Below are positions 796 to 3,363 of a stretch of DNA of 11,796 nt, piece after piece; the first letter of the stretch is position 1; the number at the start of each line of letters is the position of its first letter. The notes under the pieces are model-generated. The model was given only the letters and a program-made list of their open reading frames with translations. It was not told where the DNA came from and ran no database searches. The position numbers and the translations under genes are program-made. The stretch spans positions 1 to 11,796 of the forward strand of contig JAOAAM010000338.1 in the NCBI GenBank assembly GCA_026418875.1. Reading direction: 5' to 3'. The stretch is from Gemmataceae bacterium (GTDB lineage: Bacteria; Planctomycetota; Planctomycetia; Gemmatales; Gemmataceae).

Positions 796-2259
796 ATGAT
801 CTGCATCACGATCGCGCAGGAATCTCGTCGTCTGGCCTTGGCGGACATGCTGAACGCTGCCGCGATGGGGGCTGACTTGCTCGAAGTCCGCTTAGATACA
901 TTCGAGCACGACCCGGACCCGAAGGAACTGCTGTCGGCCCGTCGAAAGCCGGTGATTTTCTCTTGCCGCCGCTCAAGCGACGGCGGTGCTTGGCGTGGCA
1001 CGGAAGAAGCGCGCATCATCCAATTAAAGACGGCGATCATCGCTCAACCGGACTTCTGCGAGCTGGAGTGGGACATCGCCGACCAAGTGCGACGATTTGG
1101 GTCGTGCCAGCGTGTCATTTCGTACACGAACCTGGTCGAGACCCCAGCTAATATCGTGGAAATTTACGAAGAGGCGAAGAAAAAAGATCCGGACATTATC
1201 AAGTTGACCTGCCGCGCCCGGACCCCGGAAGAGGCCTGGCCGCTCTTGCAGATACTTGCGAAATCGACCGTTCCGACGGTGGTTGTCGGCCTTGGCCGTC
1301 CGGGTCTGATGCTCACAATTCTGGGAAGGAAAATCGGCGCGCCCTTCGCGGTGGCGGCCTTGGAGCGTGGCATGGAGGTGTACCCTGGGCAGCCGACGAT
1401 CAGCGAGTTGGAGCGAATCTACCACTATCGGCAAATTGGGCGTCAGACATCGCTCCTGGGTGTCACGGGCATGGGTAGCTGGTCGATGGCCCTGACGGCG
1501 ACACTCAATCGAGCGTTTGAACTTCTGCAAGTGCCGACACGCTGTCTGCCGCTTCAGGTCGGTGACGTGCGGTTATTCCGGAAAATCATGGAAGCGGTGA
1601 AGCTGGTGGGGGTTGCCGTCGATGTCGACCATCAGCGGATGCTGCGTGAAGTGGCGAGCGAGGTTGACCCCGGGGTTGCCGACGACTCAGTGGACCTGCT
1701 GATACAACCCGAGGCAAAACGTTGGCTGGGTTCGCACACTCTGGGGACCGCCGCCGCCAACGCCTTGCGGTTGCAGATGAATTCGGCCGGCCGGGATGTA
1801 AACGGGTCGATGGTGATGATCGCTGGGATCACGCCGCTGTCCCGCGTCCTGGCGAAGCAGTTGGCTTCGCTTGGAGCACGATTGATCTTCGCGAGTCACA
1901 ATCGGCAAGAAGCGGCCCGCATGTGTCAGCAAATCGGTGGTCGGCTGATTCAGCCCGAGGCAATCTACACCACGTTGCACGACGTCGTGGTGGTCAGCCG
2001 CGAAGAGGCAGACGCTGAAGTCGATCGCCCGCCGTTGCTGTCCAACTACCTCCGCCCCGGAATGATGGTTCTAGATCTGACCGAACCGGGTGGTGAGACC
2101 GATTTCACGCGAGATGCCCGGTTGCGCGGTACCGATGTCGTCTCCTCAAGGCGGCTCGTCGCCGAGCAAGCCAAAACGATCGTGAGACGTCTGACCGGAC
2201 AAGATGTCGAGGCCGACCAACTGATCGCCGCGACGGAGGGGATCATCGAAGAGGAGTGA
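796..2259 (+). CDS. 3-dehydroquinate dehydratase/shikimate dehydrogenase-like fusion with altered active sites
   Basis: The 487-residue protein fuses a type I 3-dehydroquinate dehydratase (AroD-like, about 1-206) to a shikimate dehydrogenase (AroE-like, about 218-487). Both families act in the cytoplasmic shikimate pathway. AroD features kept are LLEVRLD (E30, R32), CRRSSDGG (R59), the Schiff-base lysine in DIIKL (K136) and PGQ (Q199). By eye-alignment to E. coli AroD, the catalytic His143 is Thr111, Arg213 is Thr174, Ser232 is Val195 and Glu86 is Asp62. In the AroE part, catalytic Lys65 is Gln280, Asp102 is Leu316, the HSxSP substrate loop reads WSMAL and the GAGGA nucleotide loop reads GITPL. 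The C-terminal LVAEQA motif remains. The fold is therefore supported but ordinary catalysis is doubtful. ATG 796 gives the family-like start MICITIAQ; GTG 730 and TTG 775 are in-frame alternatives. No strong ribosome binding site is visible. Confidence 0.8.
   Translation: MICITIAQESRRLALADMLNAAAMGADLLEVRLDTFEHDPDPKELLSARRKPVIFSCRRSSDGGAWRGTEEARIIQLKTAIIAQPDFCELEWDIADQVRRFGSCQRVISYTNLVETPANIVEIYEEAKKKDPDIIKLTCRARTPEEAWPLLQILAKSTVPTVVVGLGRPGLMLTILGRKIGAPFAVAALERGMEVYPGQPTISELERIYHYRQIGRQTSLLGVTGMGSWSMALTATLNRAFELLQVPTRCLPLQVGDVRLFRKIMEAVKLVGVAVDVDHQRMLREVASEVDPGVADDSVDLLIQPEAKRWLGSHTLGTAAANALRLQMNSAGRDVNGSMVMIAGITPLSRVLAKQLASLGARLIFASHNRQEAARMCQQIGGRLIQPEAIYTTLHDVVVVSREEADAEVDRPPLLSNYLRPGMMVLDLTEPGGETDFTRDARLRGTDVVSSRRLVAEQAKTIVRRLTGQDVEADQLIAATEGIIEEE
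2251..2256 (+). promoter_or_regulatory. Ribosome binding site for ald inside the preceding gene's end
   Basis: GAGGAG encodes the last two glutamates of the AroDE-like protein and lies 6 bases before the ald ATG at 2263. Only three bases separate the two coding regions, so translation of the two genes is probably coupled. This fixes the ald start. Confidence 0.75.
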
Positions 2260-2262
2260 TGC

Positions 2263-3363
2263 ATGATCGTCGGCGTGCTCAAAGAAATCAAGGCGGATGA
2301 GTATCGAGTGGCCATGACACCGGCCGGCGTCGAAGAGCTGACCGATGACGGACACGAAGTGCTGGTTCAAGCTGGGGCGGGTCATGGGAGCGGCATCAGT
2401 GACGAGCAATACGCGGAGAATGGAGCCAAGATCATCGCTTCGGCGGCGGACATCTGGCGAGCAGCCGACATGATCGTCAAGGTCAAGGAGCCGCTGCCGC
2501 AAGAGTGGCCGATGATGCGTCGTGGCCAAATCGTCTTCACGTATTTTCACTTCGCCGCCGACGAAGAGCTGACCCGCGCCGTCATGGAGTCGGGAATCAT
2601 CGCGATCGCTTACGAAACGATCCGGGATTCGCGGGGCAACCTGCCGCTCTTGACTCCGATGAGCGAGGTGGCGGGTCGCATGAGTATTCAAGAGGGCGCG
2701 AAGTTCTTGGAACGTCCTTTCCAAGGGCGGGGAATCTTGCTCGGTGGCGTGCCTGGGGTCGCCCCCGCCGCGGTGACCATCTTGGGAGGCGGCGTTGTCG
2801 GAGCGAACGCTGCCAAGGTTGCGGCAGGATTGGGAGCAAATGTTTTTATCTTGGACATCAACGTCGATCGGCTACGTTACCTGGACGATGTGATGCCGCC
2901 CAACGTCACCACCTTGTTCAGCGATCGGCACAATATCCGCCAATGCCTCTCCCTGTCAGACTTAGTCATCGGAGCGGTGCTGATTCCGGGAGCACGCGCG
3001 CCACGGCTGATCACTCGCGAAGATCTGAAACGAATGATCCCCCGCGCCGTCATCATCGATGTCGCCATCGATCAGGGAGGATGCGTGGAGACGGCCCGGC
3101 CCACGACCCACAGCAATCCGACGTACATCGTGGATGAGATCGTGCACTACTGCGTCGCAAACATGCCTGGTGCTGTCGGTCGCACGAGCACCTACGCCCT
3201 GACGAACGTCACGCTGCCTTATGCCCGCCAATTGGCGAATCTCGGTTTCCCCAAGGCGATCCGCGAAAGCTCCGCTCTTCGCCTGGGGGTCAACATTGCC
3301 GAAGGGAAGATCACCAACGCGGCGGTGGCCCAGACTTTTGGTCTGCCGTGGACGGAGCTTTGA
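2263..3363 (+). CDS. ald: Alanine dehydrogenase
   Basis: This enzyme interconverts L-alanine and pyruvate plus ammonia using NAD, in the cytoplasm. Its 366 residues match the usual length of about 370. Catalytic and substrate residues fall at the canonical numbers: Arg15, Lys75 (in VKVKEP), His96 (in YFHFA) and Asp270 (in DVAIDQGGC). The Rossmann fold has GGGVVG at 175-180 and the ribose-binding Asp198. The segment TPMSEVAGRM (131-140) and the C-terminal GKITNAAVAQTFG are family hallmarks. It starts 3 bases after the AroDE-like gene, with its ribosome binding site inside that gene. This suggests a two-gene transcription unit, although no pathway link between the two is obvious. The related N-terminal half of transhydrogenase is excluded by the conserved alanine-site residues and the complete length. 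Confidence 0.96.
   Translation: MIVGVLKEIKADEYRVAMTPAGVEELTDDGHEVLVQAGAGHGSGISDEQYAENGAKIIASAADIWRAADMIVKVKEPLPQEWPMMRRGQIVFTYFHFAADEELTRAVMESGIIAIAYETIRDSRGNLPLLTPMSEVAGRMSIQEGAKFLERPFQGRGILLGGVPGVAPAAVTILGGGVVGANAAKVAAGLGANVFILDINVDRLRYLDDVMPPNVTTLFSDRHNIRQCLSLSDLVIGAVLIPGARAPRLITREDLKRMIPRAVIIDVAIDQGGCVETARPTTHSNPTYIVDEIVHYCVANMPGAVGRTSTYALTNVTLPYARQLANLGFPKAIRESSALRLGVNIAEGKITNAAVAQTFGLPWTEL

Follow-up and report, generated by a model that had tools for sequence, protein, structure and literature searches.

What is an AroD-AroE fusion retained for, once catalytic residues of both halves are gone, in a genome which encodes a canonical AroDE as well? The question is raised by a gene located at positions 796..2259 (+ strand, as all features given below) of contig JAOAAM010000338.1 of a Gemmataceae bacterium, whose 11,796 nucleotides are hereafter called the window. 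The gene encodes an AroD-AroE-like protein of 487 aa plus stop, which matches the PF01487 model (120.3 bits, cut-off 22.2) and falls in a paralogue clade supported at 100/100. The sequence-only reading had described a fusion with both active sites dismantled, and the alignment to plant 2gpt and to 54 canonical rows bears this out. The protein is an ancient AroDE paralogue which, judging from sequence, most likely catalyses neither dehydroquinate dehydration nor shikimate oxidation any longer. Where a database name is given among the best 120 of 764 matches, it is mostly 3-dehydroquinate dehydratase/shikimate dehydrogenase. This naming is contradicted by the active sites, as these can be read from the alignment, and pathway reconstructions counting the paralogues as AroDE would err. 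No title dealing with the planctomycete paralogue occurs among those listed in the literature surveyed, which included few subscription journals.

Gene structure and domains

The reading frame is unbroken as far as the stop at 2257-2259, as had been claimed. In the list of open reading frames it starts with a GTG at 730. A start at the ATG of position 796 is more probable, given that aligned relatives open with the same xIC.. stretch, residue 2 being Ile, and residue 3 Cys, in 24 of 25 rows each. In this alignment, from which rows L098, L101 and L106 were left out, the leading Met was imposed on the rows, and is itself no evidence for the start. Codon use had been said to resemble that of the neighbours, and GC3 (0.715) indeed falls inside the range of the six other genes of the window (0.684-0.757).

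In a Pfam search of the protein the AroE model found no match, and no domain other than PF01487 was detected. Equivalog cut-offs were reached neither for TIGR01093, type I dehydroquinate dehydratase (DHQase; 87 bits vs 139.3), nor for NF006802, bifunctional AroDE (50.8 bits vs 598), a model which may not suit planctomycetes. The AroD-like half (796..1422, residues 1-209) is a TIM barrel, and is conserved as strongly as its canonical counterpart. In the AroE-like half (1444..2256, residues 217-487) the fold is kept, the catalytic residues are lost, and the sequence is relaxed. Both the TIM-barrel fold of the AroD family and the two-domain AroE fold are present in the predicted structure (pLDDT 93), which matches plant DHQ-SDH (TM 0.85 to 2gpt) with the two-domain arrangement preserved. 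The modelled fold follows AroD and AroE over their whole length, and the structural comparison that had been proposed does not refute the earlier reading.

The two active sites

Residues were compared over 36 paralogue rows, 54 canonical rows and Arabidopsis DHQ-SDH (2gpt). Rows L098, L101, L106, L049 (truncated at the end of a contig) and L127 (truncated) were left out, two genes are doubled among the canonical rows (L080/L119 and L102/L124), and the Arabidopsis (At) numbering takes the T381G mutant 6bmb as its reference point. Arg213, E46, Ser232 and Gln236 are taken here to be position numbers of the E. coli/Salmonella (Ec) enzyme, in which Arg213 binds a group of the substrate. In excerpts from PMC9902378, K170, H143, R48 and R82 are the numbers of E. 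coli/Salmonella type I DHQase, and the His takes part in both formation and hydrolysis of the Schiff base.

The Schiff-base Lys position corresponds to K136 (1201..1203; Ec K170, At K241), and is Lys in 35/36 paralogue and 54/54 canonical rows. The paralogue of genome G032 (L054:7101-8561), the sole row without it, has Arg instead. The catalytic His, found in 54/54 canonical rows, is replaced by T111 (1126..1128; Ec H143, At H214). Thr occurs at this position in 34 of the 36 paralogue rows, Val and Arg in one each, His in none. T174 (1315..1317; Ec R213, At R279) replaces an Arg present in all 54 canonical rows and in 0/36 paralogues, which have Ser (22), Thr (6), Ala (6), Pro (1) or Asn (1). 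All three assignments made by eye, K136 kept and Thr for both His143 and Arg213, were thus found by alignment. The E46 position is kept in 36/36 paralogue and 54/54 canonical rows, the R82 position in 34/36 and 54/54. R48, invariant in the 54 canonical rows, is Arg in 20 of 36 paralogues and Cys in 16. E30, R58, D62 and Q199 are retained along with K136 in the protein under study.

Val for Ser232 had been listed among the losses. The substitution is real (V195), but does not count as a sign of decay, the position being Ile, Leu, Phe or Val in 45/54 canonical rows. Gln236 is kept in 34/36 paralogue rows, but in 19/54 canonical rows. Canonical Planctomycetota AroDE have Leu, Ile or Met there in 35/54 rows. 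At both positions E. coli makes an unsuitable reference, since canonical rows themselves vary there. A different His in the catalytic position had been named as contrary evidence; none is conserved across the 36 relatives, and in every column of the AroD half His is present in at most half of the rows.

Loss of DHQase activity is likely, as far as residues can tell, given the role of the His in Schiff-base chemistry and the inactive domain of Candida albicans Aro1. According to the excerpts of PMC9074039, the DHQase domain of Aro1 has Gln for His, no suitable Lys and no detectable activity. On this partial account the two cases are alike, in that a type I DHQase domain has another residue for the catalytic His and persists within a fusion. 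They differ because Aro1 lacks a suitable Lys and, by the same account, has other domains active, whereas the paralogue keeps the Lys and has lost the AroE catalytic residues.

In the AroE-like half the catalytic Lys is replaced by Q280 (1633..1635; At K385), and the catalytic Asp by L316 (1741..1743; At D423). Asp is present in 0/36 paralogue and 54/54 canonical rows, and so is Lys, though three paralogue rows carry a Lys at most two columns from the catalytic position, where an alignment slip is possible. No conserved substitute residue occurs at either position in the 36 paralogue rows. The two Ser of the HSxSP loop are replaced by M231 and L233. The glycine-rich nucleotide loop (1825..1842, G344-I-T-P-L-S) is broken, reading G344-I-T346-P347 for GxGG. 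Across the 36 rows the first Gly is invariant, while Gly occupies the third position in 15 rows and the fourth position in 16. Gln for Lys65, Leu for Asp102, the changed HSxSP and the broken GxGGxx had all been reported from the sequence, and hold.

Selective constraint

Constraint differs between the halves. Among the 23 genomes in which both copies could be aligned, mean pairwise identity in the AroD half is 0.588 for the paralogue and 0.572 for the canonical copy, in the AroE half 0.343 and 0.519, respectively. Of the clade-specific positions, defined as residues found in >=90% of paralogue and <10% of canonical rows, 16 fall in the AroD half, and the AroE half has 2. The dN/dS of the gene, computed against its congener, is 0.054, at a dS (2.6) near saturation. 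In three other pairs paralogue/canonical values are 0.032/0.043 (family f2, g37), 0.039/0.076 (f4, g48) and 0.136/0.227 (f1, g3 and g5). By these sequence measures the gene is maintained by selection, above all in the AroD half, and the earlier impression of a paralogue free of obvious decay can be restated as strong constraint. The missing catalytic residues might be taken to denote a pseudogene or an annotation artefact, but the chance of this is negligible. No internal stop occurs in any of the matches of the 37 carriers, the dN/dS is low, and the genes form one well-supported clade across several families. Decay of the gene is ruled out by its dN/dS, by the conservation of the halves and by clade support.

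Canonical copies, distribution and origin

The gene is not alone in its genome. A canonical AroDE of 512 aa, with HSLSP, IPHK and NTD motifs, is followed by aroK on contig C467. Contig C525 carries a second, unfused aroE (L004/L106), in which IPHK and NTD motifs are present. A type II DHQase (AroQ) as back-up had no match in the genome, which is 83.25% complete. The absence of other genes for the two steps, which had been named as evidence against a dismantled fusion, is not what is found, and a role as sole gene for both steps is ruled out by the canonical AroDE and the second aroE. A canonical-type copy was found in all 37 carrier genomes listed across two samples; 24 such copies were aligned (that of G001 is partial), and 12 extra carriers of family f4 were judged by score alone.

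The paralogue was identified in 25 of 59 relatives, rows being assigned by score, and fetched rows also by alignment. Carriers are 16/37 in f1 (Gemmataceae), 4/7 in f2, 4/4 in f4, 1/3 in f5, and 0/8 in f3, f6, f7 and f8. In a 294-genome sample of the phylum all 16 f4 genomes among the matches listed have the paralogue. In a larger class sample several f4 genomes (e.g. G396 and G413) have one match, in the canonical range, which suggests that the paralogue is not universal in f4. None of 15 loci outside the class (14 genes) scored nearer the protein of the window than the canonical one. Conservation across Planctomycetota, which had been suspected, is too broad a claim, the paralogue being found in part of the class Planctomycetia.

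In a tree of 85 rows, from which ten rows (the long row L126, the others being duplicate or nearly identical) were left out and to which L142 and L147 were added, 35 paralogue rows form one clade (100/100) and 42 canonical Planctomycetia rows a second (97/98), their sister relationship being supported at 99/97. Inside the paralogue clade f4 is one clade (100/100), f1 is one clade (96/95) with f2 rows around it, and three copies of genome G046 group together (88/92). The simplest account of these sequences would be a single duplication before the families split, followed by loss in some of them. The lineage-specific AroDE paralogue first proposed from a single sequence is thereby substantiated, with one origin and a canonical-type copy beside it in 37/37 carriers.

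Genomic neighbourhood and a kinase fusion

In the window the gene is flanked by serS and ald. The latter (2263..3363), of the alanine dehydrogenase/PNT family, starts three bases past the stop. The tight coupling to ald pointed out earlier is true of the window (three bases from stop to ATG), but not elsewhere, as ald adjoins the paralogue in 2 of 38 loci, those of the window genome and its congener. A functional link with ald finds no support beyond the genus, and ald is probably not part of the system of the paralogue. No neighbour family, regulators included, occurs in more than four of the 38 loci, some of which lie on short contigs. Reading the table, shared families are found mostly among congeners or at differing positions.

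Kolteria novifilia Pan216 (G046) carries three members of the paralogue clade and a canonical AroDE. One member (L069:4045-6852) is a 936-aa ORF in which PF00069 (residues 102-355) lies ahead of PF01487 (448-652). In the protein search it has 909 aa and is listed for Planctomycetes bacterium Pan216 under the name "serine/threonine-protein kinase PknB". The Schiff-base Lys is kept in this member, Thr replaces the His, and the branch is long. No further kinase fusions occur among the matches listed in the protein search and in the class sample. The fusion hints at sensing, which it favours a little. Excerpts from PMC12288469 report that K. novifilia Pan216 uses both shikimate and protocatechuate. 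No support was obtained for a link to protocatechuate catabolism, the protocatechuate dioxygenase beta subunit scoring above the cut-off in 0 of 59 genomes, 25 carriers included, with weaker matches in 45/59.

Possible functions

The protein is tentatively regarded as a ligand-binding pseudoenzyme with a regulatory output, convergent with the fungal AROM-derived QutR and GaaX, and the probability of this reading is put at roughly 0.48. The ligand of the AroD pocket would be a small carbonyl metabolite. With the His of Schiff-base formation and hydrolysis gone, this ligand might stay attached to K136 as a slow imine. Binding would be relayed via the AroE-like half to a partner, the protein acting as a metabolite sensor or regulator, and the kinase fusion of K. 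novifilia suggests one form that the output can take. A stricter version envisages a covalent-imine receptor. A keto-metabolite would be trapped on K136, the conserved Thr standing for the His, and the dead dehydrogenase domain would report occupancy, the recipient being a fused Ser/Thr kinase in one lineage. This version is unlikely; if true, it would represent a bacterial sensor class arisen separately from the fungal AROM-derived repressors. Should the protein be a sensor of any kind, a shikimate multi-enzyme would have become a regulator in bacteria, as thought for fungi, and the kept Lys would provide a direct chemical handle to the ligand (borohydride trapping).

According to passages of PMC6528562 and PMC10512348, the fungal GaaX, QutR and Qa-1S are similar to AROM over its last three domains. 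The working hypothesis put forward there is that AROM-like repressors are inactive yet bind the inducer, and the DHQase-like domain of QutR is proposed to bind dehydroquinate without reacting. Going by these partial descriptions, QutR, Qa-1S, GaaX and TanX are, like the paralogue, presumed inactive AroD-AroE derivatives of a shikimate multi-enzyme with low identity to the parent, and the Pfam AroE model fails on the paralogue as reported for GaaX paralogues. By analogy, both families may follow the same logic, a standing enzyme plus a dead copy with a kept pocket. Yet, as described in those passages, the similarity of fungal repressors extends to the shikimate kinase part of AROM, and their genes reside beside a Zn2Cys6 activator, whereas the paralogue starts at AroD, has no such domain, and has no adjacent activator (serS and ald in the window; 38 loci). 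Unlike the fungal repressors, the paralogue clade sits inside bacterial AroDE. Compared to canonical Planctomycetia AroDE and plant DHQ-SDH (2gpt, 2o7q), the paralogue has lost His and Arg213 from its AroD half, and Lys and Asp from its AroE half, keeps the Schiff-base Lys, and is an extra copy beside the canonical one.

Several data do not favour the sensor reading. No regulator is consistently found beside the gene, the kinase fusion was met once and on a long branch, Arg replaces the Lys in one row of the 36 (G032), and the link to protocatechuate catabolism is unsupported. At the predicted barrel mouth, a crude secondary-structure test shows no enrichment of the clade-specific positions (7/16, p = 0.18), but none of the conserved canonical positions used as control either (12/35, p = 0.37), so that the outcome weighs neither for nor against the reading. 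The kept Lys fits sensing or new chemistry alike, and the main rival, though somewhat unlikely, is a new Schiff-base enzyme. K136 would work with new conserved residues (among them T111, T143, C57, E190, E194, S10 and R11) on a substrate devoid of the group bound by Arg213, and the AroE half would be only structural or part of a dimer. The persistence of Lys in 35/36 rows, when the inactive Candida Aro1 domain has no suitable Lys, the 16 clade-specific positions of the AroD half vs 2 in the AroE half, and a constraint at least equal to that of the canonical AroD half agree with new catalysis. Yet no conserved His takes the place of His143, no common pathway genes lie nearby in 38 loci, and the pocket is not uniform, R48 being Cys in 16/36 rows and the Arg213 position Ser, Thr, Ala, Pro or Asn.

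The protein might alternatively be a non-catalytic partner, or an allosteric scaffold, of canonical AroDE, mixed dimers tuning the shikimate flux. Such a role is improbable, even if all 37 carriers keep a canonical-type AroDE, the model preserves the two-domain arrangement (TM 0.85 to 2gpt), and the Aro1 dimer of Candida is mediated by the DHQase domain, according to the excerpts of PMC9074039. It does not explain why the AroD half, with its Lys, is the most conserved part; 34 of 59 relatives, some with incomplete assemblies, have a canonical AroDE and no paralogue, and the Kolteria fusion suggests a different output. Even less credit goes to the notion that one canonical step is still performed, weakly or by unusual residues. 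The fold and K136, E30, R58, D62 and Q199 remain, but His143, Arg213 and the AroE Lys and Asp are all lost in 36/36 rows, a canonical enzyme is present, and scores are far below the equivalog cut-offs.

Other divergent copies

Additional variants were noticed in the samples. Matches of G571, G582, G519, G383, G647, G420, G667, G537 and G659 in the class sample contain one in-frame stop, which may reflect either an error of assembly or decay confined to these genomes; in the same sample frames of 741 and 715 aa occur in G420 and G667. The f4 genome G267 has a divergent copy as its third (L142, G267:C41). As judged by eye, Asn stands for the His in this copy; the Lys is kept, and the tree places the copy inside the paralogue clade. 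Genomes of family f39 (G249, G281, G301, G320; L143-L146) host a short copy of 327-344 aa besides a full-length AroDE. The short copy includes an AroD half with the His kept and the first AroE lobe only, with the Lys region altered. Judging from its sequence, the AroE half seems to have decayed or been reused here independently. In G249 the short copy keeps the His, and the full-length AroDE (L147, G249:C264) has Tyr at the expected position (by eye); the full-length AroDE of G281, G301 and G320 keep the His.
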